DNA of 64,000 nucleotides, taken from Branchiostoma floridae (lineage: Eukaryota; Chordata; Leptocardii; Amphioxiformes; Branchiostomatidae). Under the pieces are notes generated by a model. The model ran no database searches. It was not told the origin of the DNA and was given only the letters and a program-made list of their open reading frames with translations. Position numbers and translations under genes: made by a program. Shown here one piece after another: positions 1,189 through 51,540 of the stretch (position 1 is the stretch's first letter; every line of letters begins with the position of its first letter). The stretch is taken from assembly GCF_000003815.2 (NCBI RefSeq), contig NC_049981.1, forward strand, positions 20,492,646 through 20,556,645, in the 5' to 3' direction.

Positions 1189-3264
1189 TTATTCTACAAT
1201 ATTCTCGAGACGCTTGTACTTTGACTTCAGAGTCCGTTGTCCAATGACCCCAGTCACTCCAATCCCCACTGCTATCACCAACAGAACAACTCCAACGGTG
1301 ACGATCAGTACTTTATCACTGCCGCCTCCGGAGTCGTCTGCACATTCCTCTGCCGGGGAGAACTGTCCTGATTGGACGTCAAACGGCTGAACCTGAACAT
1401 TGCGGAACGCCACGGAGACGTTTGGGGTTAAATCGACGCCGATATCTTTGGAACACTTGTAAGAATGACCAGCGTCAGTTGGGAATAGATTTAGCGTAGT
1501 GTTGGATATCTTTCGCGCTTTATCCGGTGTTAAGGTGTCTAAAAAGATGACAGGTACTTCCACGAAGGAAAAATAGGCAGTTATACCATGGTACATGGTC
1601 GCGTGATCATCATTGTGTTCTCGCGAGAACGAGAGCGTCAGATTAAACATGGCGTCGTAGAACGTCAAGGTTAGCGTCGAATGTGAGTTTCCACAAACTC
1701 CCGAAGCCTCGGCGTTTGGGGGAACGTCGAAAACGGCAGTCCCGACCATGTCGCTCTCCTTGGTGTAGTTAACATGGAACCTTATGCCCATGTTTGCCAG
1801 TAGGCATTTATCGCCTGACGCGTTGTAAACAACGTAGTGACCTTGTGGCACAGGAGGGTACACAGGTGATGATGACGGCACGTTTGAAGTGGTCATCACC
1901 GGCCTGGTGGTGTGGTTACTGGGTATGGTGGATGCTGGACCAATAGAAGTGAAGTTACCTTCTGTAGTAGTTGGGGTGGTTACTAAGGTGGCATTTTCCA
2001 TAGGGTACATGGTCACTGGATAGTCCTTGTCACACTCATCGGGAACGCTAAAATGCCCATTTATGACACCGAATGGTTGGATTTGGAACTCTATGATTTC
2101 CAGAACTATACCCGACCCTACATGGAACCACTGTTGCGATTTGCACAAGTATGATCTGCCAATGTTTGTTTGCAATAGGTTCGGATTTTTGACAGTCTGT
2201 ATGCGACTTATTCTTGGGTTCCGAGAGCCTGGAAAATAGCTTGGGGTTTGTCCATAGCCGACGGAAACTGTGTCTAGCGAGTACGTCTTACCACTGGAGG
2301 TGAAAATAGCCGTCACGTTAAAAGCGCCGCCAAAGCTGAGGGATATGTTAGCGGCATGCTGACTGCAGGAGCCTGTGATGGTGCAGTTTTCCGGGAGAAC
2401 ATAGGAGGCGTTGCGTACTTTGCCATTCTTCATCTGGTATTCCACGTGAAACATGGCGCCTAGATTTGCCAACAAACAAATTTCACCTTTTTGATCCCGT
2501 AAAATAAAATGGCCGACAGGAATGATCGGAATCTCGGTTATAGCCGGTACGTGTGGTGTCGTGGTGATGGGCGCTTCCGTAGTATAGTGATCACGTGAGC
2601 ATTCTCTAGCTTTCGAAAATTTCCCAAAACGAACTTCGAACGGTTGCACTTGGATGTAATGAACGGTTAGATTTGCCACTGTGCCGCCCGGATTCTGGTT
2701 CAGAAAAAGGTCAAACTCGGTCTTGCAAAGATATGAATGGGGAAGCAGGACGCCAGACGATGTGTTCAGTCGGACGCCCATGCTGTAAGGATAGGCAATC
2801 CCGTTGGGATATTTTGCATCTGGAAACATGTCCGGTGTTAAGGTGTGACTAGACATGACTTCCCACAGGTGGAAATGTTTCATAATGAGTGAGTCCCGTC
2901 CGAAAGTCATGCCCAGTCCAAAGTTACCATGGAACACATGACCTTTAGATTCACAGTTGGTGAAGTTAAGGTGAATGAACGAGTCGGGCCCTAAGCTTGG
3001 ACACTCACCGGTTACACGACTCGTAGGAGGCAAGTCGTACGATACCACAGCGGTGGTGTTGTCCGTCTTCGTGTATTGTACGTGAAACGTAGCAGCCAAG
3101 TCCAGAAGCAAGCATTTTCTTCCGTGCTCTTTGAGCGCGAAGTGTCCTATTGACCTTGATAGTGTGTGGTCAACTGCAACCGCTGACACCCCGAAACAGT
3201 ATTTGAAGAAAATCAGGAAAATAAGACAATCCACAGACATCTTGTACTTTCTGCTCCAATTCAT
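1189..3264 (-). CDS. LAMP1-like: LAMP-like lysosomal membrane glycoprotein, gene A
   Basis: Single-exon gene of about 691 aa starting at the ATG at 3264; a second in-frame ATG at 3240 is also possible. It encodes a type I lysosomal membrane glycoprotein. A hydrophobic signal peptide (about residues 1-30) precedes three LAMP luminal domains (about 35-225, 250-430 and 485-650). Each domain has four cysteines and ends in a QPF-V-x-G-x-FS-x-x-EEC type motif, close to the QAF..GQFG..EEC end of vertebrate LAMP1. Thr/Pro-rich linkers separate the domains and N-glycosylation sequons are numerous. One membrane helix and a short tail follow; the tail contains YKRL, a YxxL lysosomal sorting motif. Vertebrate LAMP1/2 have two luminal domains and several introns, so three domains in one exon is unusual. 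Head to head with gene B, with 198 bp between start codons. The family call is firm; orthology to LAMP1 rather than LAMP2 is not. Confidence 0.9.
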   Translation of the reverse strand: MNWSRKYKMSVDCLIFLIFFKYCFGVSAVAVDHTLSRSIGHFALKEHGRKCLLLDLAATFHVQYTKTDNTTAVVSYDLPPTSRVTGECPSLGPDSFIHLNFTNCESKGHVFHGNFGLGMTFGRDSLIMKHFHLWEVMSSHTLTPDMFPDAKYPNGIAYPYSMGVRLNTSSGVLLPHSYLCKTEFDLFLNQNPGGTVANLTVHYIQVQPFEVRFGKFSKARECSRDHYTTEAPITTTPHVPAITEIPIIPVGHFILRDQKGEICLLANLGAMFHVEYQMKNGKVRNASYVLPENCTITGSCSQHAANISLSFGGAFNVTAIFTSSGKTYSLDTVSVGYGQTPSYFPGSRNPRISRIQTVKNPNLLQTNIGRSYLCKSQQWFHVGSGIVLEIIEFQIQPFGVINGHFSVPDECDKDYPVTMYPMENATLVTTPTTTEGNFTSIGPASTIPSNHTTRPVMTTSNVPSSSPVYPPVPQGHYVVYNASGDKCLLANMGIRFHVNYTKESDMVGTAVFDVPPNAEASGVCGNSHSTLTLTFYDAMFNLTLSFSREHNDDHATMYHGITAYFSFVEVPVIFLDTLTPDKARKISNTTLNLFPTDAGHSYKCSKDIGVDLTPNVSVAFRNVQVQPFDVQSGQFSPAEECADDSGGGSDKVLIVTVGVVLLVIAVGIGVTGVIGQRTLKSKYKRLENIVE

Positions 3265-3462
3265 ATCGCTGTTCGTTGGTCCAGTAGTCCATAGAGAACG
3301 TTCACTGCCTCTCACATACTTTCACTAGAACATTGTGACACAATCAGGGGACTATCGCATCGATGGCAAAGTCCACGTAAATGACAAACACGCTTGTACC
3401 AAAGGTCGAATGACCTCATCCATTGGGTCAACGTACATCGCCTATGGTTGGAAAGAAAGACC
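3265..3462. promoter_or_regulatory. Shared bidirectional 5' region of LAMP genes A and B
   Basis: Only 198 bp separate the start codons of the divergent genes A (minus) and B (plus), so this stretch must hold both 5' UTRs and the core promoters, unless transcription starts inside a gene. Recognisably related sequence lies upstream of gene C (about 6180-6399) and gene D (about 9130-9354), including the stretch TACCAAAGGTC or CACCAAAGGTCACATGG and the ACCATGGCT start context. No canonical TATA box was recognised. Confidence 0.6.
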
Positions 3463-5466
3463 ATGGCTTCTTCATTAACCTTTCCAAATAGGTTGTACAA
3501 CATTATCTTTATTGTTATACTCTGTGTGGGTGCTAAAGCTGTGTCTGTCGATTCATCTCAAACCACGGGACATTTCTCACTCCAGGAAAACGGGAGGCCA
3601 TGCTTTCTTCTCGACCTGTCAGCCACCTGCCACGTACAGTACGAAAAGACAGACGGGACTGTCGCTACAGTGTCCTACCCTGTCCCGACATACAGCCAGG
3701 TTAGCGGATTCTGTGCCACTAATGACGAATTCGACACGCTTTCCTCGATTCAGCTGAATTTCGGTGACCGTGTTCCAGGACATGGTTTTAATGGGACGTT
3801 TGCGTTAATATTAAAGTATCAGAGAGACGTTCCCGTCATGACGCACTTCTGGTTGAACGAAGTGGTCAGCGTTTATACTCTGTCGCCCGGACTGTTTCCT
3901 GACGCAAAGTTTCCCAACGTGCCAGTGCACACGTACAACATTGGAACCTATCTCAACACGAGCGCTTTCTTGTCCCCACGTTCATACCTATGCAGGAGAG
4001 ATAAGGAATTTTCCTTAGATCAGTACGTCGAAGAGCGCCCGACAAACGTCACCATACACTATATTCATGTTCAGCCCTTTCTTGTTCAACATGGAGGGAA
4101 GTTTTCTCAAACAGAAGAATGCCCACAGGACTTCCAAAGTACAACAGAACCACCCTACCCAGTCACTACCGACACGCTGGTTATCCCGGTCGGACATTTT
4201 GTTTTGCACGATGACAAAGGTCAGATTTGTTTGCTAGCAAACTTTGGCGCCATGTTTCGTGTGGAGTATGAACTGATACAGGGAATGACGCGCAATGCCA
4301 CCTACGTTCTTCCAGAAAACTGCGCCATTTCCGGCTCTTGTGAAGAGGGAACTGTTCACGTGACATTTAGTTTTGATACAGCCTTTAATTTGAGTGCGTC
4401 TTTCTCGTCAAACGAAAAGACATTTAAGCTGGTGTCATTATCAGTGGGATACATAAGAAGCGCAGATAACTTCCCACATGCCCTGTACCCCGATACAAGC
4501 GATATTGAAGAATTAACGAACTTGACACTATTGGAAACTGATGCCGGGAAGTCTTATCTTTGCAAGGAGCCAGGAGTGATCAAAGTTGGTCCACATGTTA
4601 CACTCGAAGTTTTGGAGCTACAAATCCAGCCTTTTGACGTCAAGAATGGAACCTTTGGTGAAACGAATGAGTGCAACAAGGATCATTCGTCCACAATTGC
4701 CCCTTTTCCCACCATTGTGCCGGCGTCATCCAATATACCGACCAATCACACACACACTACAACAAACATGCCGACACTACCGCCCCCTGTCGGTCCTACA
4801 GAACCAGTGCAGGGTAACTACACAGTACACGACTCAGAAGGCAAAGTCTGCCTTCTCGCGGACATGGGCCTACAGCTCAGAATCAACTACACAAAACAAA
4901 ATGGACAGATTGCCACAGGTGTTGTCAACGTGCCGGTGAACTCTGAAGTGTCTGGTAAATGCTCCGAATCCCACTCATCGCTGACTCTTACATTCTATGA
5001 TGCAACATTTAACTTGACCATCTCGTTCGCCATGCACAAAAAAGACGGGGACCCAGACACCTATCAGTGGACAGGCCTTTACCTCTCTTATGTAGAAGCG
5101 CCCTCTATCTTTCCGGGAACGCAACATCCAAATGAGCCGAGACTGATATTGAACACTAGCCTCAATTTATTTACCACTGGGGCGGGAAAATCATACAAAT
5201 GTAATGCAGACGTTGATATGACAGTAACAAAGGATATGGCAATACTTGTTCGTCGGGCTCACCTCCAAGCCTTCGGTGTAACATCTGGGCAATTCTCAGC
5301 TCCGGATGAATGCGCTGAAGACTCTAACGGGTCGGTGGATAAAACAGCAATAATCGTTGTTGGATTTGTTTTATTAGTTATAGCCTTGTGTATAGCTGTT
5401 GCTGGTGTTGTCGGTAAGAGGAAAGAGCACATGGTGTACGTTCGCCTGCCATCATTGTTGGATTGA
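3463..5466 (+). CDS. LAMP1-like: LAMP-like lysosomal membrane glycoprotein, gene B
   Basis: Single-exon gene, about 667 aa. I chose the ATG at 3463 (ACCATGGCT, good Kozak context) because it begins directly before the hydrophobic signal peptide and is conserved in genes C and D; the open frame extends further upstream. Three four-cysteine LAMP domains lie at roughly residues 35-225, 245-425 and 465-625. The second linker (about 425-465) is Thr/Pro-rich and mucin-like. The membrane helix is near 630-655 and the tail carries YVRL, a YxxL sorting signal for AP-dependent delivery to lysosomes. Many NxT/NxS sequons fit the heavy glycosylation of the family. Domains 2 and 3 are nearly identical to those of genes C and D, which points to recent duplication or gene conversion. 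Confidence 0.92.
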   Translation: MASSLTFPNRLYNIIFIVILCVGAKAVSVDSSQTTGHFSLQENGRPCFLLDLSATCHVQYEKTDGTVATVSYPVPTYSQVSGFCATNDEFDTLSSIQLNFGDRVPGHGFNGTFALILKYQRDVPVMTHFWLNEVVSVYTLSPGLFPDAKFPNVPVHTYNIGTYLNTSAFLSPRSYLCRRDKEFSLDQYVEERPTNVTIHYIHVQPFLVQHGGKFSQTEECPQDFQSTTEPPYPVTTDTLVIPVGHFVLHDDKGQICLLANFGAMFRVEYELIQGMTRNATYVLPENCAISGSCEEGTVHVTFSFDTAFNLSASFSSNEKTFKLVSLSVGYIRSADNFPHALYPDTSDIEELTNLTLLETDAGKSYLCKEPGVIKVGPHVTLEVLELQIQPFDVKNGTFGETNECNKDHSSTIAPFPTIVPASSNIPTNHTHTTTNMPTLPPPVGPTEPVQGNYTVHDSEGKVCLLADMGLQLRINYTKQNGQIATGVVNVPVNSEVSGKCSESHSSLTLTFYDATFNLTISFAMHKKDGDPDTYQWTGLYLSYVEAPSIFPGTQHPNEPRLILNTSLNLFTTGAGKSYKCNADVDMTVTKDMAILVRRAHLQAFGVTSGQFSAPDECAEDSNGSVDKTAIIVVGFVLLVIALCIAVAGVVGKRKEHMVYVRLPSLLD

Positions 5467-6179: not shown

Positions 6180-6399
6180 CTCTGATATCATGTTTACAGT
6201 TCGTTCAGTAGCCCACAGAAATTGGTGTCCCCTTACATACTTTTTTTGAAATCTTTATTGGTGTAACACGATGAAGTGATCAAAGCATGGATATCAAAGT
6301 CTCCGTAGATAAGAAGCAAATATACACCAAAGGTCACATGGCTTGCTCGAGTTCTCCATGGGTCAAAGTGCGTCGCCGGTGAATAGAAAAATGACTACC
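6180..6399 (+). promoter_or_regulatory. Putative 5' regulatory region of LAMP gene C
   Basis: Sequence related to the intergenic region of the divergent pair A/B and to the upstream region of gene D. Conserved pieces include a CTTACATACTTT-like stretch and CACCAAAGGTCACATGG shortly before the start codon. Transcription start and core promoter elements are not recognised. Confidence 0.45.
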
Positions 6400-8442
6400 A
6401 TGGCTTCCCCATTCCCTTTTACATCAGATCAGTTGTTCAACATTGTCTTTCTTGTTGGAATCTGTGTGTGTACCACAACTGTGTCTCCCGACTCACCTCC
6501 CCCCACGGGACACTTCACACTCCATGATGAAATCGGTACGCCATGTTTCCTTCTCGACCTGTCGGCTACCTGCCACGTACAGTACGAAAAGACAGACGGG
6601 ACTCTCGCTACAGTGTCCTACCCTGTCCCGATCTACAGCCAGGCTAACGGAGATTGTGCCACTTGGCGTTTCGACACAGAATCCTTCATTGAACTGAATT
6701 TCGGTGACGGTGTTCCGGGGCACATTTTCAATGGGGTTTTTGCGTTGATATTAAAGTTTCAGCGAGACGCTCCCGTCATGACGCACTTCTGGTTGAGTGA
6801 AGTGCACAACATCCATTCTCTGTCACCCGGACTGTTTCCTGACGCAAAGCTTCCCAACCGACTTCCCGTGCGAACGTGCAACACTGGAACCTATTTCAAA
6901 ACGAGTGCCTTCCTTTCCCCACGTTCTTTCCTGTGCACAAGAGACAAAATATTTCATTTGGATCAAGGCGACAAAGAGTTTCCGACAAACGTCACAATAC
7001 ACTATATCCATGTTCAGCCCTTTCATGTTCTACAAGGAGGACAGTTTTCCCAAACAGAGGAATGCCCACAGGACTTCCAAAGTACAACAGAACCTCCATT
7101 AACGACAACCGGACCTTTCCCCGCCACTACCGACACACTGGTTATCCCGGTCGGACATTTTGTTTTGGAAGACGACAAAGGTCAGGCTTGTTTGCTAGCA
7201 AACTTTGGTGCCATGTTTCATGTGGATTATGAACTGATACAGGGAATGACACGAAACGCCACCTACGTTCTTCCAGAAAACTGTTCCGTATCTGGACTTT
7301 GCGAACAGGAAACTGCTGACGTGATATTGAGTTTTGATACAGGTTTTAATTTGAGTGCGTCTTTTTCGTCAGATGAAAAGGCATTTAAGCTAGTGTCATT
7401 ATCAGTGGGATACACAAGAAGCACCGATCACTTCCCACATGCCCTCTACCCCGATACAAGCAGCATTGAAGAATTAACGAACTTGGCACTGTTGGAAACT
7501 GATGCCGGGAAGTCTTATCTTTGCAAGGAGCCAGGAGTGATCAAAGTAGGTCCACATGTTACACTCGAAGTTTTGGAGCTACAAATCCAGCCTTTTGACG
7601 TCAAGAATGGAACCTTCGGTGAAGCAAATGAGTGTAACAAGGATCATTCGTCTACAATCGCCCCTTTTCCCACCAATGCCAGTTTCACCATTGTGCCGGC
7701 GTCATCCATTCTACCGACCAACCGTACACACATTACAACAAACATGCCGACACTACCGCCCCCTATCGGTCCTACAGAACCACTGCAGGGTAACTACACA
7801 GTACACGATTCAGAAGGCAAAGTCTGCCTTCTGGCAGACATGGGCCTACAGCTCAGAATCAACTACACAAAACAAAGCGGACAGATTGCCACAGGTGTTG
7901 TCAACGTGCCCGTGAACTCTGAAGTGTCTGGTAAATGCTCCGAATCCCACTCATCGCTGACTCTTACAATCTATGATGCAACATTTAACTTGACCGTCTC
8001 GTTTGCCATGCACAAGAAAGACGGCGACCCAGACACCTATCAGTGGACAGGCTTTTACCTCTCGTACGTGGAAGTACCCTCAATCTTTCCGGGAACGCAA
8101 CACGCAAGCGAGGCGAGACTGATATCGAACACTAGTCTCCGTCTATTTACAACTAATGTGGGTATGTCGTACAAATGTATAGCAGGCGTCAATGCGACAG
8201 TAACGAAAGACATGACAATACTTGTCCGTCGGGTTCATCTGCAAGCCTTCGGTGTAACATCCGGGCAATTCTCAGCTCCGAAAGAATGCGCTGAAGACTC
8301 TAATGAGACGGTGGATAAAACAGCGATAACTGTTGTTGGGGTAGTTCTATTTATCATAGCCTTGTGTATAACTGCGGTTGGCGTTGTTGGTAAGAGGAAA
8401 AAACACAAGATGTACATTCGTCTGCCATCATTGGTGGAATGA
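6400..8442 (+). CDS. LAMP1-like: LAMP-like lysosomal membrane glycoprotein, gene C
   Basis: Single-exon gene, about 680 aa from the ATG at 6400; in-frame ATGs at 6391 and 6358 would add 3 or 14 residues. Same architecture as gene B: signal peptide, three LAMP domains each closing with QPF/QAF..GxF....EC, two Thr/Pro-rich linkers, membrane helix, and a tail with YIRL. The first linker contains an extra TTEPPLTTTGPFPATT-type stretch compared with gene B. Expected role: lumen-lining glycoprotein of late endosomes and lysosomes. It lies about 0.9 kb downstream of gene B in the same orientation. The gap holds dead fragments of an SLC15 last exon and of a minus-strand LAMP N-terminus, the signature of the duplicated unit. 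Confidence 0.92.
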   Translation: MASPFPFTSDQLFNIVFLVGICVCTTTVSPDSPPPTGHFTLHDEIGTPCFLLDLSATCHVQYEKTDGTLATVSYPVPIYSQANGDCATWRFDTESFIELNFGDGVPGHIFNGVFALILKFQRDAPVMTHFWLSEVHNIHSLSPGLFPDAKLPNRLPVRTCNTGTYFKTSAFLSPRSFLCTRDKIFHLDQGDKEFPTNVTIHYIHVQPFHVLQGGQFSQTEECPQDFQSTTEPPLTTTGPFPATTDTLVIPVGHFVLEDDKGQACLLANFGAMFHVDYELIQGMTRNATYVLPENCSVSGLCEQETADVILSFDTGFNLSASFSSDEKAFKLVSLSVGYTRSTDHFPHALYPDTSSIEELTNLALLETDAGKSYLCKEPGVIKVGPHVTLEVLELQIQPFDVKNGTFGEANECNKDHSSTIAPFPTNASFTIVPASSILPTNRTHITTNMPTLPPPIGPTEPLQGNYTVHDSEGKVCLLADMGLQLRINYTKQSGQIATGVVNVPVNSEVSGKCSESHSSLTLTIYDATFNLTVSFAMHKKDGDPDTYQWTGFYLSYVEVPSIFPGTQHASEARLISNTSLRLFTTNVGMSYKCIAGVNATVTKDMTILVRRVHLQAFGVTSGQFSAPKECAEDSNETVDKTAITVVGVVLFIIALCITAVGVVGKRKKHKMYIRLPSLVE

Positions 8443-9129: not shown

Positions 9130-9354
9130 TGCGGTCTAACGCCGAAATAACATACCTCTAATATCATGTTTACAGTTTGTTCAGTAACCCTAAGGGAATG
9201 ATGTCTCCTCACATACTTTGATTGGCACCCCAGTGATAAAGTGGTCAGCGCACGGATGATAGAATCCATGTAGATAAACAAATTGACACCAAAGGTCACA
9301 TGGCCTTCTTCAGCAGGTCAAAGTACGTCACCGATGGATGAAAAAATGACTACC
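9130..9354 (+). promoter_or_regulatory. Putative 5' regulatory region of LAMP gene D
   Basis: Homologous to the upstream regions of genes B and C: a CTCACATACTTTGA stretch, then CACCAAAGGTCACATGG just before the coding start. Defined only by this similarity. Confidence 0.45.
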
Positions 9355-11393
9355 ATGGCTTTTCCATTCCCTTTTACACCCGATCGGTTATTCACCATTG
9401 TCTTTATTGTTGTACTCTGTGTGGGTACCACAACTGTTTTTGCCGACTCATCTGCAACCACGGGACACTTCTTGCTCCAAAAGAACGGCAGACCATGTTT
9501 CCTTCTCGACCTGTCGGCTACCTGTCACGTACAGTACAAAAAGACAGACGGGACTCTCGCTACAGTGTCCTACCCTGTCCCGACCTACAGCCTGGCTGAC
9601 GGATATTGCAGCACTAAGCAAGACGAAAAGCTATCCGCGATTCAACTGAGTTTCGGTGACCGAGTACCGGGGCATGGTTTCAATGGGACTTTTGCGCTGA
9701 TATTAAGGTTTCAGCGGGACGCTCCCGTCATGACGCACTTCTGGTTGAATGAAGTGTACAGCATCCATACTCTGTCACCAGGACTGTTTCCTGACGCAAA
9801 GTTTCCCAACCTGCTCGAACACAGGTACGACTTTGGAACCTATCTCAAAACGACTGCCTTCTTGTCTCCACGTTCCTACCTGTGCAAGAGAGACAATGTA
9901 TTTTTCTTAGATCGAAACGCCGAAGAGTTTCCGTTAAACGTTACCATACACTACATTCATGTTCACCGTTCGAGGTTCATGATCGGGGAGGAAAGTTCGC
10001 CCAAACAGAGGAATGTCCACAGGACTTTCAAAGTACAACAGAACCACCATTAACGACAACCGGACCCTACCCGGTCACTACCAACACACTGGTCATCCCA
10101 GTCGGCCATTTTGTTTTGGAAGACGACAAAGGTCAGGCTTGTTTGTTAGCAAACTTTGGTGCCATGTTTCGTGTGGAGTATGAACTGATTCAGGGAATGA
10201 CGCGCAACACCACCTACGTGCTTCCAGAAAACTGTACCGTATCTGGCTTTTGCGAAGAGGAAACTGCTACCGTGACATTGAGTTTTGATACAGCTTTCAA
10301 TTTAAGCGCGTCTTTCTCGTCAGATGACAAGACATTTAAGCTGGTGTCATTATCAGTGGGATACACAAGAAGCGCAGCTCACTTCCCACATGCCCTCTAC
10401 CCAGATACAAGCAATATTGAAGAATTAACGAACTTGACACTATTGGAAACTAATGCCGGGAAGTCGTATCTTTGCAAGGAGCCAGAAGTGATCAAAGTAG
10501 GTCCACATGTTACACTCGAAGTTTTGGAGCTACAAATCCAGCCTTTTGACGTCAAAAATGGAACCTTTGGTGAAGCAAATGAGTGCAACAAGGATCATTC
10601 GTCTACAATCGCCCCTTTTCCCACCAATGCCAGTTTCACCATTGTGCCGGCGTCATCCATTCTACCGACCAACCGTACAAACACTACAACAAACATGCCG
10701 ACACTACCGCCCCCTATCGGTCCTACAGAACCACTGCAGGGTAACTACACAGTGCACGATTCTGAAGGGAAAGTCTGCCTTCTGGCAGACATGGGCCTAC
10801 AGCTCAGAATCAACTACACAAAACAAAACGGACAGATTGCTACAGGTGTTGTCAACGTGCCCGTGAACTCTGAAGTGTCTGGTAAATGTTCCGAATCCCA
10901 CTCATCGCTGACTCTTGCATTCTATGATGCAACATTTAACTTGACCATCTCGTTTGCCATGCACAAAAAAGACGGGGACCCAGACACCTATCAGTGGACA
11001 GGCCTTTACCTCTCATATGTAGAAGCGCCCTCTATCTTTCCGGGAACGCAACATCCAAACAAGCCGAGACTGATATCTAATACCAGTGTCCATCTGTTTA
11101 CCACTGGCGTCGGTAAGTCATACAAATGTAAGGCAGACGTCAATGCGACAGTAACGAAGGACATGACAATACTTGTCCGTCGGGTTCATCTGCAATCTTT
11201 TGGTGTAAAGTATGGGCAGTTTTCAGCTCCAGAAGAATGCGTTGAGGACTCCAGTGGGTCAGTGGATAAAACAGTAATAATAGTTGTTGGGATTGTTCTG
11301 TTTATCATAGCTCTATGTGTAGCTGTTGCTGGTGTTGTTGGTAAGAGGAAAGAACACAAGATGTACATTCGTCTGCCATCATTGTTGGATTAA
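9355..11393 (+). CDS. LAMP1-like: LAMP-like gene D, interrupted by a one-base frameshift
   Basis: Same single-exon, three-domain LAMP architecture as genes B and C, starting at the ATG at 9355 (an in-frame ATG at 9334 is possible). The frame is lost near 9965: where gene C reads GTTCAGCCCTTTC, gene D reads GTTCACCGTTCG, one base short, just before the QPF motif that ends domain 1. Upstream, the frame ends at about 10053 in unrelated residues. Downstream, the correct frame stays open for about 1.4 kb through domains 2 and 3, the membrane helix and the YIRL tail. An otherwise intact frame implies a very young mutation, an allele, or a sequencing/assembly error. As assembled it would yield a secreted, truncated first domain. 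Confidence 0.85.
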
Positions 11394-43824: not shown

Positions 43825-46800
43825 ATGAAAAGTGAAAGTGAAGATGTGGCGCGGGAAGAAGAAGACCACGTGGTCTCCCCCTCCGACCGAAACAGCCGAG
43901 TCATGATGAGCAGCCTCCTGGTCTGGCTGAGCGAACTGTGCGAGCGCGTGACGTATTATGGGATAGTTGCCAACATGGCGGACTACGTGACGTCACCATG
44001 TTTCCCCGAACGATACCATTTGCGATTTTTGCACACGGGAGCCACTCCTCCTCGCTCCTCCTCCTCCTCCCATTGGCTCCCGGCTGTTCTGGTCACACGG
44101 GAGCCAATCCTCCTCCTCCTCCTCGCAACAAAACAACTCTTTCGCTACCCTGATTCAATGTATTTCTTCTTAATTTACTTCCTTTGCCAAGAAACAAGAA
44201 AGCTCCTCTGAGCTTTGACGTTATACTTCCCACATGATCTTGATCGTAAGGGACTAGTTAATTAACACAATGCACATTGACTACTTCCGTAATATCAGCA
44301 CGTGGAATAGCGGCCAATAATGTGAGGTATCGGCCTCCTCCTTACTTAGAATTTTGTCCGGTGATGTGTATCTGCCTTTTATTTTGCTGGGAAGCAAGGT
44401 TGTGAATGAAAAGTAACCTGGTATCTCTATGTTTATCAATCTCTATGTTATATTGACCTATCAATAGTTTGTTCAATATAAATGTCTTCATTCTTTCAAT
44501 ATAAAGACTTACTGTAACCTTTTCCAATGATTTAAGTTATGTAATATCCACAGATAGATTAGAAGAGTTGTGAGAGGCTACCCACCTGTATTGAAATGAA
44601 TAAATAGATAAATAAATAAAGAGACTTTCTTTTAAATGTTTTTTTATACATTATAACTTGAAATTTTGACGGTTCGACAAATATATCCCTTCTTGTCCAT
44701 CGGTGGGACATCCGCTGTGCTGGTAAACAAAGAACCTCTTTGGGTAAACTGAAATCCCTCAGACGGTTTTTCTCCTCCACGGGAAAATTTACGACATCCC
44801 GTGGGACGGGTCTTCACCAGGGGTCGAAGCGCGGTCATTCACTTCAAGCACCGTCTGCCCTGACACGACAGGTACAGGTGGATAAGTGTGTTTACATAGC
44901 CTAGGGGCCAGGTGAGACATTGTACAGGTGAGATAGGTGTGTTTACATAGCCTAGGGGCCAGGTGAGACATTGAACAGATGGATAGGCGTGATTCCTTTG
45001 ATAAGGGGCCAGGTGGGACATTGAACAGGTGAGATAGGTGTTTACTTTGCCTAGGGGCCAGGTGAGACATTGAACAGGTGAGATAGGTGTGTTTACTTTG
45101 CCTAGGGGCCAGGTGAGACATTGTACAGGTGGAAAGGTGTGTTTACATAGCCTAGGGGCCAGGTGAGACATTGTACAGGTGGATAGGTGTGTTTACATAG
45201 CCTAGGGGCCAGGTGAGACATTGTACAGGTGAGACAGGTGTGTTTACTTTGCCTAGGGGCCAGGTGGGACATTGTACAGGTGAGATAGGTGTCTTTACTT
45301 TGCCTAGGGGCCAGGTGAGACATTGAACAGGTGAGATAGGTGTGTTTTCTTTGAGTAGGGACCAGGTGAGACATTGTACAGATGGATAGGTGTGATTCCT
45401 TTGATAAGGGGCCAGGTGGGACATTGTACAGGTGAGATAGGTGTCTTTACTTTGCCTAGGGGCCAGGTGAGACATTGAACAGGTGAGATAGGTGTGTTTT
45501 CTTTGAGTAGGGACCAGGTGAGACATTGTACAGATAGATAGGTGTGATTCCTTTGATAAGGGGCCAGGTGGGACATTGTACAGGTGAGATAGGTGTCTTT
45601 ACTTTGCCTAGGGGCCAGGTGAGACATTGAACAGGTGAGATAGGTGTGTTTTCTTTGAGTAGGGACCAGGTGAGACATTGTACAGGTGGATAGGTGTGTA
45701 TACATAGCCTAGGGGCCAGGTGAGACATTGTACATGTGAGATAGTTGTGTTTACTTTGCCTAGGGGCCAGGTGAGACATTTTACAGGTGAGATNNNNNNN
45801 NNNNNNNNNNNNNNNNNNNNNNNNNNNNNNNNNNNNNNNNNNNNNNNNNNNNNNNNNNNNNNNNNNNNNNNNNNNNNNNNNNNNNNNNNNNNNAGGAAAA
45901 AACCCCTATTTGGCCCTGTTCAATATTTCACCTGGGCCCTTAGAAAAGGAAAAAAACCTATTTGCCCTGGTTAAAAATTCACCAGGTGCCTAGACAAAGA
46001 AAAAAAACCCATCTCACCTGTTCAAAGTCTCACCTGGCCCCTAGGCAAAGTAAACACACCTATCTCACCTGTTCAATGTCCCACCTGGCCTCTTATCAAA
46101 GAAATCACACCTATCTCACCTGTACAATGTCTCACCTGGCCCCTATTCAAAGTAAACACACCTATCTCACCTGCACAATATCCCACCTGATCCCTATTCA
46201 AAGTAAACAAACCTATCTCACCTGTACAATGTCTCACCTGACCCCTAGTCAAGTAAACAGAACTATCTCACCTGCACAATGTCCCACCTGGGCCCTAGGC
46301 AAAGAAACACACACCAATTTTACCTTTAGAATGTCTCACCTGGTCCCTTCTCAAAGAAAACACACCTACGTGTAAGGTGTTTCTTAATAGAGGTAATATT
46401 TAAACACACTACATACACTTATATTGTGTCTTATTTGGAGCAGCATTATTGAAATAACTGTAACTGTGGGGTTTAAGAGCTGCCAGACTGACCACGCCAG
46501 TACGTGGCTCTAGAGCTTATGGTGTTGTGGTTTGCACGTTGGATTTGTAATCTGCCGACCCGGCTTCGATCCCGGGTATCGGCATGTTTGTTTCTTTCTG
46601 TTCTTACTCGCCCCTCTTAATTTCTACATAACATTCCATGGTTTTATATCATAACACATATACCCTAGATACAGAAGTGTCACACGACATCCACTTGTAA
46701 GCTAAACGTTTCTTACCTGGACCATAATTTAAACGAAAAAACATCCCAGCAACCAGCTACCCATTTTGATAGAAGTCGGATTCAGAAACACTGGGTGAAG

Positions 46801-49800
46801 TTGTAATGTGCCTCATCAGAAAGCTTGTTTTGCAGACAGAGCAACCGTAACCGAACGATAAACTAAGAAGTTGCCTGACAAAACAACACAAAAATATATA
46901 CAACGTGTCAAAACGCGCTGCTATGCTAAAAAGCACTGCTACTAATGTATCTCAGAGTGCCACATGTTTACATTTTTGCATAATTAGCAGTTTTAATCAA
47001 CCTTATCACCCCTTATCACCCCTGCCGATGCAATGCGATCGTCCATTTTTGCGAGGAGGAGGAGGATTGGCTCCCGTGTGCCGTGAACAGACGGGAGCCA
47101 ATGGGAGGAGGAGGAGGAGGAGGAGGAATGGCTCCCGTCTGACCGATTCTACCATTTGCCATGGGTGGTCACGTGGGTTTTCACGGGTTGCGCCTACACA
47201 CTGACATTTTTCGGGGGTTGGCTCGCCGATACTGTCGGCAACCGCTTCTGGACAATCCTGGTCAGCATGTGGATCTATCTCGTCGGTGAGATGAATGAAT
47301 GAACGAATGAATTAAGAAAGGAATGCACACCTACCCCGGCGAGATGATATGAGTCGATGATTGTCAATAAATGATATCAATTACTAACTTTTATCAATCA
47401 TGATAGTATGTGATATAGTCTATTACGCTTGAAGTTTTGTATTTTGATTAACTTCGTGAAAACGAACGTATTGGTTTCGGTCTATGTGTTTGTTTGTATC
47501 CGTGTGTGTTCACTCTTATTTGAATATTGTGTATTGAGAGGATGTGAGGCGGAAGATGGTGCAGAAGGTGAAGGCAAGATGGGAAAGTTAACTTAGCTCG
47601 GGTCCAAAGTTGCAGAGGCAGGAACATGAATAAGCAGAATTGGAGAAACTCACAATTATTAAGTATATAAGAAATTCCCCAAACTCTTACTGTTTTACTG
47701 AAGTGCGAAGTCTTCGATTTCTCTTTGTAACGCTGTACATTTGACTCTTGCCAATCTTGAACAATATTATATCATAAGCTCTTGTATTGCATGTAATGTG
47801 TTTGCACACTTCGGAGCATAGATGTTTCACTGCACCCACTCCAGGGACAGCCCTACTCGTCGCTTCCTCCAGTTTGTGTGGCTCACATCCGGACGGACGC
47901 GTCTCCGGGCTTTACTTTGCCGGCCTGACTCTCGTTGCCATAGGAACGGGAGGCAGCAAATCCAACCTCGGTCTGTTCGGCGCACAGCAGTACAAAGGTT
48001 TAGGAGAGGACGCGAAAGTCCAGCTGCAACATTTCTTCCACTGGTAACGTTCTTTGTTTAATCATCTTTAATTATCATTTAGCTTTAAGACAGACAAGGA
48101 CAATGTGGCACTTGACTCAAGTCAGTCACTTATTTCAACAGTGCCACATACAAATGACAGACGGAAGATAAAAGTAGTCACATAGCCTTTTTTGGGCTGT
48201 AACTGGGTTGTTATCAACTGTGTCTATTGAATGGTATTGAAAGGTGAGCCTATCCCTCACCTTGGAGAGAGTAAAGTCGTGTTGAATGCCTTTAACAGGG
48301 ACACAAGTTCGGTAGCATGACAGCATTGGCGGAGGTTATGGGTCAAGTAACCTGTAATTTATACACCACATGACCCAGTCTGTCAATTAAAAATTGTTTG
48401 CCGTTGTTTCGACCACTACTCTCGCGTCACATAATCAGATGCAAACACTCGTCCATTGCCTATAATAAATCAATTGGTCCTGAGTGCGGAACAACCAATA
48501 GTTAGATGGAAAGGGGTTTGTTGGATCAATATAGGTGAAGTGAAACCAAAAGTGAAACCTTCAACTTCGTAACTAAAGAAAGGAACGATTGATTGCTACA
48601 GGTACTACTGGTGTATTAACCTGGGCGCTACCATTGGCGTGGTAGGGGTGCCGACTCTACAAAAGCACGTCAGTGTGCTGAGTGGGTACGTGGTGACCTG
48701 TGTCTGCGTCGTGCTTTCTGCTCTTGTCTTCGTCTTAGGCCGCATTGGAAGCTTCTACAGTCAAGAAAACAGCACACATGGTTGGTTCTTTATTCAATTT
48801 TTAGTCTACTTAAAATCCATTTTTCTCTTTTGTTGATTATTTATTCCCTTGCAGTTGGGCCACTTCACCATTATCCGCGGGGCAACCTATTAGACTAAGT
48901 ATATGTTGTTAAAAATGTATTTATAGGGATATCAAATAGACGGACGGTGGTTTCAAATGTGGTTACAATATTTTAATATAATAATAAATTACAACATTAC
49001 AGTTTGAAACAACCGTCAACCTGGTATCCTTGAACACTCTGTTTTTTAAAACATCGGATATAAGTGACATGTACCTCGCGGATAAAGGTGAACTAGCATT
49101 ACTTCCACTATGATATTACAGAGATCCGGAGCAGAATCGTTGCTGGCCTACTTGATCCGAGCAGAAAAACGCGACGTAGAGAGCTGCAAGGAAGGTGCGA
49201 TATTGATAACAATTACTTACATGTTCTGTTGCTAATGTCTTCTTTCCATCCGGTTTTTAGAGACAAAAACGTGTACACCCCTTAACGTGCATGCCCCTTA
49301 ACTGTGGTCTGATAGATAGAAGCTCTTCGACAATGAGACAGGGGTATAACAGACAGGGTTTCGGGAAGGCGACAACTGAAGACACCTGGCTTTTTTTAAT
49401 TTCCTTTTAACGTTGCAGACTGTGGAGTTCGACCATCCCGAAGGAGGTGTGGAAACTGATGCAAATATTCGCAACTCTGATCCCATACTACGCCATCTAC
49501 TCACAGGTAATGGGAATAACAACAATTAATTGAATCTTGAGAAACGAGTACCGATTCAGTAGCATTGCGTCTCTTCTTTTACCATGTTTTGCCAAGCTTA
49601 GAGTGTCTGGCTTGACGTTGCACAGTTTGATTTCCTTCGAATTCAGTCACCCGATCATGATTGTTTCCCAGTTTACCTCCCAGAAGAAAATGCCCTTACA
49701 AAGTTCCTTTGTTGATTGGAAGTCAAGTTAAATGATGTTGGTCGCAGATGCTCGTAAACATTTACCAAGCAAATGTAGCTAGGTCAGACAGCATAACAAG

Positions 49801-51540
49801 GCTAAGATTACATTGAATGAATAACATTATCCATTCCAACAGACAAGAACAACCTACCTGTTCCAAAGCGAACGTCTGCGCATGCCTGCGGGGTCAGAGG
49901 CCACGTACTTCAGCGCCATTAACAACCTGACTATCCTCCTGATGATCCCACTCATGGTCCGGTTTGTGTATCCCCGCCTGACGAACAAGGAAGTACAATT
50001 TACACCGCTGACTGTCATGGGTATGTTCGACTAGATATGAATAGTTCTATGTACTAATAGTCACACGACGATGGCTGATCAAGAAAATCATTTCAGTACA
50101 TGAACTCGCATTCATTGAAACGCTATGGTTTGGATACTTGAATGCATAGATACTTTATTCAGTCCATTAACTAATAACATACATTTATTTGGTAAGAATC
50201 TAGTCTTCCTGGACATAGGGACATACACATTAGCTAAAAGTTTAACATACCTATTTACAGATAATACACAGTCAAGTTGAATGGCTACTAGTATATGAAT
50301 GTGGCAAAATAATCTATACAGGTGTCGGAATCCTGCTGTCTACGCTGTCGGTGCTATCCGCAGAGGTGGTGGAAGTTGGCCGCCGACAGCTTGTCCACAG
50401 CGGCCACTTCTTTCAGCAGGCGGTAGGGAACCGCACTCTTCGCGCTGCAGAGCTGAGTGTGGCGGTACAGATCCCACAGTTAGTCCTGTCAGGCGTCAGT
50501 GAAGTGTTCACCCTCGCCGTCGGTAAGCCCTGCCACTTTCGTTTTGTGTGTTTTCTTTTTGTGGCATCGGTAACGTTATATTGTATCCGTAGCTCATGTT
50601 TTCCGTTGTAGCCGTTAACGTTACATGCTGCACAAGCGTTGTGTATGTGTACTTTTCCCGCGCTTTCCCGACGTTGTTTTCAGACTATTGTATGAGTGGC
50701 TGTGCTGTCTTCACCGTGCTAACTGGCTTGAATTGAATGTACATTAATCGTCAGGTTACTACTTTGCCTACACGGAAGCTCCGCCTGGTTACGAGGGGAC
50801 CATCATGGGGGCCTTTCTACTAATGTGGGGACTCGGCAGCGGTCTCAGCGTACTTCTAACCGAGATAGTCAACGCCATATGTTGTGAGGAAACGAATATC
50901 AATAATATTCCATTCTTAAGAAACAAGATGTAAAAACATACACATCAACATAAGTTTGAATACTAGTATTGAACTTAGGGAGCTTCAACACAAAATAATA
51001 AGAGACCTTCATACGTTATCGCATTGCCATAGACATTTGTCATATGAAAGAGAATTTAAGATAGCATTGGAACATTTGGCAAATTGTGTTCTTCTCTGCG
51101 TCTATCCTCTGTTACATTTGACTGTACAGTTGTTAACTGTTTATAATGTGTTCTCCGCAACTTTATACTTTATAGTAATTTGAATGTCCATGTTTATATG
51201 TCAACTTGTTAGAAATGACACAATTCATTATGTAACTAACAATATTCGATGATAACTGTAATTATGTATTTTGTATATATTTTCAGATGGCGTGTCTGGT
51301 GCCGCCTGCTTCCCACTAGAGTTAAATGACGGCCATGTAGAGTATTTCTTCCTGACCCTTGCCGTCCTCCTGATGGCGACATTCGGCGTCTTTTGGTACC
51401 TGGAGCGCCATTACGTGTACAGGTCAGAGGTCACCACGCAGACGCAAGACGCTGAATATCCGCTCCTGGAGAGTAAAGAGACTAGTGGTACTGGTACCGC
51501 TTACGGCACAACTGGACATACGGAAAACATTCATACATAA
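43825..51540 (+). CDS. SLC15A4-like: SLC15 (POT) transporter gene 4, first coding exon split by a foldback-type insertion
   Basis: Inferred pieces: exon 1 as 43825-44023 plus 47160-47285, then 47845-48043, 48602-48780, 49122-49194, 49419-49506, 49843-50020, 50322-50522, 50755-50883, 51287-51540. Ignoring the insertion they encode 541 aa with the same intron phases as genes 2 and 3. POT motifs: ELCER in helix 1, GGWLAD, GTGGSKSNLG, YYWCIN, FAYTEAP. The tail has EYPLL, a YxxL-type signal. An element of at least 3.1 kb interrupts exon 1 just after ERYH; removing it with one copy of the 10-bp duplication gives YHLPWVVTWVF, which lines up without a gap with YHDPLTFTWIF of gene 3. As assembled the protein would stop after about 128 residues. 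Either a disrupted allele or a young loss of function; all other exons look intact. Confidence 0.85.
44014..44023 (+). repeat. Target-site duplication, left copy
   Basis: TACCATTTGC, identical to 47150-47159; the two copies bracket the insertion in SLC15 gene 4. Confidence 0.85.
44870..45793 (+). repeat. Minisatellite, left arm
   Basis: About 19 units of 46-50 bp, each close to GCCTAGGGGCCAGGTGAGAC, then ATTGTACAGGTGAGATAGG, then TGTGTTTACTTT. Units differ at a few positions (GTAGGGACC, TGATAAGG). Each unit carries up to two CAGGTGAGA strings. Open frames across the array repeat MSHLAPRQSK on the minus strand and are an effect of the repeat, not genes. Confidence 0.9.
45794..45893. other. 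Assembly gap of 100 N
   Basis: Exactly 100 N, the usual placeholder for a gap of unknown length. It falls between the two oppositely oriented minisatellite arms, where a palindrome would defeat assembly. Confidence 0.95.
45894..46376 (-). repeat. Minisatellite, right arm (inverted)
   Basis: About ten units that are the reverse complement of the left arm, for example CTCACCTGGCCCCTAGGCAA followed by AGTAAACACACCTATCTCAC. Units next to the gap (45894-46010) are more degenerate and A-rich, which may be true divergence or poor base quality at the contig end. Confidence 0.88.
46506..46590 (+). repeat. tRNA-like sequence inside the foldback element
   Basis: TGGTTTGCACGTTGGATTTGTAATC resembles a tRNA D-arm to anticodon-arm stretch (TGT in the loop position). 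CCCGGCTTCGATCCCGGG is a well-formed T arm with B box. The 5' acceptor strand does not pair with the 3' strand TATCGGC, so it is a pseudo-tRNA or SINE head rather than a functional tRNA. Confidence 0.55.
47150..47159 (+). repeat. Target-site duplication, right copy
   Basis: TACCATTTGC, identical to 44014-44023. The coding sequence of SLC15 gene 4 exon 1 resumes directly after it. Confidence 0.85.
48859..49102. mobile_element. MITE family 2 copy ending about 19 bp before exon 4 of SLC15 gene 4
   Basis: TTCACCATTATCCGCGGGGC at the left and CGCGGATAAAGGTGAAC at the right are inverted and match the element at 779-982; the interior is AT-rich. The right end almost reaches the exon 4 acceptor (AG at 49120-49121), so the branch-point region may come from the element. 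Confidence 0.7.

Follow-up and report, generated by a model that had tools for sequence, protein, structure and literature searches.

A recently inserted mobile element of foldback anatomy, designated W, interrupts the first coding exon of an SLC15-like transporter gene (gene 4) in a 64,000-nucleotide stretch of the Branchiostoma floridae genome (the window; C3:20492646-20556645 of a 513-Mb assembly with 431 contigs). We interpret W as a non-autonomous foldback DNA transposon that entered exon 1 of this SLC15-family gene by a recent cut-and-paste event, would have been mobilized by a Mutator-like transposase and would leave a null allele; we assign this interpretation as a whole a probability of about 85%. 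The exon-breaking insertion has been caught together with a sibling copy, and a minisatellite that it shares with an apparently full-length Rehavkus-type element of the same genome, which carries terminal inverted repeats (TIRs), a 9-bp duplication and MULE-SWIM-PHD domains in a chordate, provides a concrete handle on the origin of foldback elements.

W occupies positions 44024-47149 (3,126 bp, 100 of which are N) between perfect 10-bp duplications of exon sequence, TACCATTTGC, at 44014..44023 and 47150..47159 (both +), the left copy being part of the SLC15 exon. The length is not exact, because a 100-N assembly gap lies between the internal arrays described below. TACCATTTGC is the sole exact 10-mer common to start positions 43974-44073 and 47100-47199, and in a control, two 30-bp stretches of the window drawn at random shared an exact 10-mer in 17 of 20,000 draws, which include a few skipped as too close or containing N. 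The anatomy shows that W inserted at a 10-bp staggered cut, duplicating TACCATTTGC. The left TIR (44024..44130, +) contains two direct copies of ACGGGAGCCA, an inverted copy with one mismatch and TCC runs, and the right TIR (47048..47149, -) aligns to it in inverted orientation; ACGGGAGCCA occurs three times in each end, exactly or nearly so, with two occurrences direct and the third inverted. The terminal sequences are GATTTTTGCACACGGGAGCC/GAATCGGTCAGACGGGAGCC. When the first 110 bases of both ends were aligned in inverted orientation, 93 matches, 11 mismatches and 12 gap columns were obtained, in agreement with the inverted ends of about 100 bp with TCC repeats recognized in an earlier note on this DNA. 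The single-strand fold of the left TIR is better than that of every one of 200 shuffled sequences (z -3.8). These ends, with their ACGGGAGCCA copies, are likely to serve as transposase recognition sites.

Between the TIRs lie a left arm of 741 bp (44131..44871, +), full-length matches to which were found solely in the copies on contigs C14 and C32 at the search sensitivity used, and a right arm of 679 bp (46369..47047, +) that is common to the C14 copy. The core of W, which the earlier note did not remark on, is formed by two arrays of a 51-bp minisatellite arranged head to head: a left array of 18.3 units (44872..45793, +) and a right array of the same unit in inverted orientation (45896..46368, -), with the assembly gap of 100 N at the palindrome centre (45794..45893). 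These arrays, together with TIRs of about 100 bp carrying repeated ACGGGAGCCA and TCC, bear out the foldback label of the earlier note. The FB elements of Drosophila and the TU elements of sea urchin have the same foldback plan.

The interrupted exon (43825..47284, +) is split into 43825-44023 and 47160-47284. Joining the flanks with a single copy of the duplication restores an open exon of 108 amino acids. This exon matches gene 2 of the window at 55 of 102 positions, with gaps confined to near its start, and gene 3 at 36 of 74, and the junction is ungapped in both alignments. It also aligns without gaps to SLC15A4 in the PDB (8cni_B, residues 34-110; E 3.8e-11). A paralogue on contig C1 lacks the insert and matches the joined exon at 51 of 86 amino acid positions with a single gap away from the junction; at the DNA level, 167 of 227 bases match, with three gaps, none of them at the junction. 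The earlier statements that the gene 4 frame breaks at the end of the first TACCATTTGC and resumes after the second, and that the joined flanks match genes 2 and 3 without a gap, are confirmed as regards the junction. The intron phase at the exon end, inspected by eye, is also common to genes 2, 3 and 4, as had been noted. Downstream, gene 4 continues in six further open stretches homologous to genes 2 and 3 (47778..51537, +). A Pfam scan of five of these six detected PTR2 in four, one of them below the cut-off, and no match in the remaining one; neither the joined exon nor the corresponding exon of gene 2 matched any Pfam family. One gene 4 exon was left unaligned by BLAST and is readable by eye in the translations, directly before a donor site. 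W introduces a frameshift, and translation continued into it in the original frame would reach a stop codon that ends at 44211, 188 bases into the element, so that the C3 allele of gene 4 should be null; the suggestion of the earlier note that the allele is null or polymorphic is plausible. When the left flank was used to look for an empty allele of the site, the sole matches were the C1 paralogue and the locus of the insertion itself.

If W were instead a new intron, acquired by an introner-like insertion and spliced out, gene 4 would be functional. In the examined stretches the gene is open apart from the insertion, and 45 frame-keeping, stop-free GT/GC-AG pairs are available (donors at 43990-44199, acceptors at 47000-47239). 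However, none of the 11 cuts that would restore the exon has GT-AG, and precise splicing is therefore unlikely. Moreover, all 45 alternative pairs add at least 30 bases, no full-consensus donor was seen by eye in any of them, and no intron is present at this position in genes 2 and 3 or in the C1 paralogue. We therefore rejected the intron reading on the GT-AG result and regard it as very improbable.

Genome-wide, the 107-bp left end of W is matched six times; the four loci concerned represent two complete copies, one partial copy and one fragment. The second complete copy, on C14, is 2,180 bp long and gap-free, has W-like ends, arms and palindrome plan, and is flanked on both sides by its own perfect 10-bp duplication, CTCCTCTCAC (in the orientation of the element). 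The check proposed earlier, a terminal repeat elsewhere with its own duplication, is answered by this copy, and the duplication is 10 bp and perfect in both complete copies. Outside the minisatellite, W and the C14 copy differ at 19 of 1,604 aligned sites (1.2%; 11 of 842 in the left arm and 8 of 762 in the right arm; 63 gap columns left out), a divergence lower than the amphioxus heterozygosity of 3.2-4.2% printed in one report (PMC12500494). The insertion is accordingly recent, as the earlier note had held, and the separate duplication of the C14 copy and the 1.2% divergence of the arms identify W as a recently mobile non-autonomous foldback DNA transposon. At the sequenced centre of the C14 copy, the threshold applied detected a single left unit opposite eight right ones, compared with 18 and 7 in W, so the palindrome is real and variable in length. 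That W is an assembly artefact is suggested by the N gap of uncertain size at its centre; both junctions are gap-free with a perfect duplication, however, and the C14 copy of the same plan is gap-free, which makes this explanation extremely improbable. The partial copy lies on C32, a contig of 3,443 bases, where the left end is 94% and the arm 77-79% identical to W before the sequence becomes different. The fragment, on C6, is an end of which 74 bases match W. A further candidate at C1:25267305, found through a terminal motif with one mismatch, was rejected since just 16 bases match.

Two repeats reside within the arms. A repeat of about 170 bp in the right arm (46459..46629, +), present in both complete copies, is abundant in the genome (774 first-look candidates, 40 scored). 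It is probably a tRNA-derived short interspersed element; a weak tRNA-like match was obtained at 46515-46584 (17 bits, E 0.6, below the Rfam cut-off of 29), and scans of the whole window with Rfam at the gathering threshold and for tRNAs gave no matches. In the left arm, a short motif with an (AAAT)-like tail at 44563-44624 also occurs at 11 other scored loci and is perhaps a retroposon tail. On C32, another TIR element (about 865-1862, reverse orientation; ends GGGTTTACGGAAAAGCCTGGGCCC) is nested just after the left arm, and a 9-bp direct repeat, GCTGGTGTA, was read by eye beside it.

A search with four units of the left array yielded 176 matches (122 first-look candidates, 40 scored), which we grouped into clusters from one or more representatives per listed place. 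Homologues of the 51-bp unit are present in at least 33 genomic clusters among the matches listed, and at least 6 of these 33, W and C14 included, contain units in opposite orientations no more than 5 kb apart. The 51-bp consensus units of C2, C12 and C7 are identical to that of W at 39-42 of 50-51 positions, and four units scored 26.6-31, where 200 plain shuffles per unit never exceeded 11.9. A profile search of the genome with PF10551, the domain of Mutator-like elements (MULEs), gave 27 matches from 71 candidates; three of the 27 lie within 10 kb of a listed 51-bp cluster, where 0.035 would be expected. Since the loci on C7 and C17 belong to one family (90% identity over 5.4 kb), these represent at least two independent pairs. 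For the arrays on C12 (C12a), a search for TIRs and duplications gave no duplication of 9-10 bp.

The C7 locus (reverse strand; L065+L066+L067+L074) holds an element of about 10.8 kb, a second copy of which is on C17. Its 55-bp TIRs are 96% identical and are bounded by a 9-bp duplication, AGAGAGCGG; ALS2CR8-like, MULE/RNaseH, SWIM and PHD domains lie on separate open stretches, and two arrays of 51-62-bp units in the same orientation are enclosed by the TIRs along with these transposase pieces. With its 9-bp duplication and PHD-finger transposase domains, it is apparently a full-length Rehavkus-type element, judging from its sequence, and the Rehavkus layout given in the relevant part of a 2019 survey (PMC6446971) is that of this locus. 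A Phantom-like reading is possible, because for aphid Phantom elements the same table of that survey records minisatellites that follow the transposase. As far as its relevant part goes, the survey has Rehavkus from arthropods and annelids only and reports MULE transposases as not detected in B. floridae. Rehavkus-type elements of this species may already be in Repbase under another name; 265 B. floridae families in Repbase are given in a table of 2015, as excerpted (PMC4455052). The C2 locus (L062:2294-6445) encodes a MULE open reading frame (ORF) of 1,384 amino acids with a long stretch of acidic tandem repeats of 32-33 residues (96/99-bp units), followed downstream by a C48-protease-like piece (19.3 bits, below the cut-off of 20.7). 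Head-to-head arrays lie about 6 kb from its MULE domain, with a 131-bp inverted repeat near them. A MULE match on C13 has an equal score and is 100% identical to the C2 locus over 2,621 bp.

The length of the duplication and the shared minisatellite point to a MULE/Rehavkus-type mobilizer, and W was most likely mobilized by a Mutator-like transposase encoded at another locus and acting in trans. The 10-bp duplication falls within the 8-11 bp stated for MULEs in the consulted part of PMC6446971, and the palindrome in the interior is built of 51-bp arrays homologous to those of the MULE/Rehavkus-type transposon of the same genome. The Mutator-like link proposed in the earlier note is thereby made likely. 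Several observations weigh against our interpretation. No transposase with the ends of W was found in the assembly, the MULE family alone having been searched, and the arms of W contain no long ORF (longest stop-free stretches of 84 amino acids in the left arm and 65 in the right). The 17-base terminal motif has nine exact matches at four loci (C3, C14, C32 and C6), none of them near any of the 27 PF10551 matches, and with up to two mismatches it gave 27 and 34 matches, no different in level from the reversed-pattern control (31 and 23). The TIRs of W differ from those of C7, and, apart from the multicopy motif at 44563-44624, its arms have no match in the 54 loci retrieved from outside the family. 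Further, the two ends agree poorly in their outermost 10 bases (by eye, 5 of 10 are identical; GATTTTTGCA versus GAATCGGTCA), the copy number of the family is very low, and no exact duplication was found for the C17 copy. At C2, neither an exact 9-10-bp duplication beside the inverted repeat nor a TIR or duplication joining the arrays with the transposase was detected.

The failure to find a partner transposase in the MULE search would also be expected if W were a foldback of another superfamily, such as a Galileo-type P element or hAT, and foldback structure does arise in different superfamilies according to the portion consulted of a study of Tetris, a foldback element of Drosophila virilis (PMC4079207). 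We nevertheless consider this unlikely. Both complete copies have duplications of 10 bp, and those of Galileo/P and hAT elements are shorter, 7-8 bp; in addition, W shares its minisatellite with a MULE/Rehavkus-type element. A somewhat stronger objection, possible but clearly the less probable view, is that the 51-bp arrays derive from an unrelated minisatellite of the host, which was picked up by chance by both W and MULEs and is uninformative on affiliation. Thirty of the 33 listed clusters have no MULE match within 10 kb, and the divergent C32 copy retains the left arm with other sequence where the array starts. Against this stand the excess of MULE-cluster pairs over expectation, the enclosure of both C7 arrays within a TIR-bounded element and the clusters with two orientations within 5 kb. 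It is also conceivable, if rather doubtful, that the minisatellite acts as a cis-module, either as a platform for binding or as an amplification-promoting hairpin, which Mutator-like elements of this genome share and pass between otherwise unrelated TIR families, and that foldbacks arise repeatedly by inverted doubling of arrays and not by slow lengthening of TIRs. Bearing on this idea, the consensus is kept at 76-82% where the compared TIRs and arms show no similarity, and the two-orientation arrays are mostly head-to-head.

In the literature searched, we found no description of the foldback family of W, which Repbase may hold under another name. The closest parallels are in structure. As far as the consulted part of its description goes, Tetris is likewise non-autonomous, has few complete copies (three), duplications of 8-10 bp and tandem repeats, its partner transposase was not found, and it was assigned to Mutator on duplication length (PMC4079207). 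The tandem repeats of Tetris are within its TIRs, whereas the 51-bp unit of W lies inside two low-copy arms and not in the TIR proper, and the two are likened by description and not by sequence. Tm1, a Mutator/Foldback family of root-knot nematodes (PMC3169594, in excerpt), resembles W in its composite inverted ends, with terminal motifs A1 and A2, its non-autonomous members and its duplications of 8-10 bp, mostly 9; unlike the W family, in which the MULE search found none, it includes transposase-coding members. Rehavkus shares minisatellite arrays with W, and the beetle element Rehavkus-1_TC carries tandem arrays in its inverted termini, as the available portions of two papers describe (PMC6446971, PMC10218199). 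The arrays of W, about 780-850 bp from its ends, are near-terminal minisatellites homologous to those of C7; W differs from Rehavkus in its 10-bp instead of 9-bp duplication, its other TIRs and its lack of a transposase.

Elsewhere in the window, four long coding stretches that are related to one another, with about 40-86% identity, are located at 3385-5463, 6313-8439 and 9274-11390 (+) and at 1192-3321 (-). The third stretch of this cluster appears to be split over two frames.

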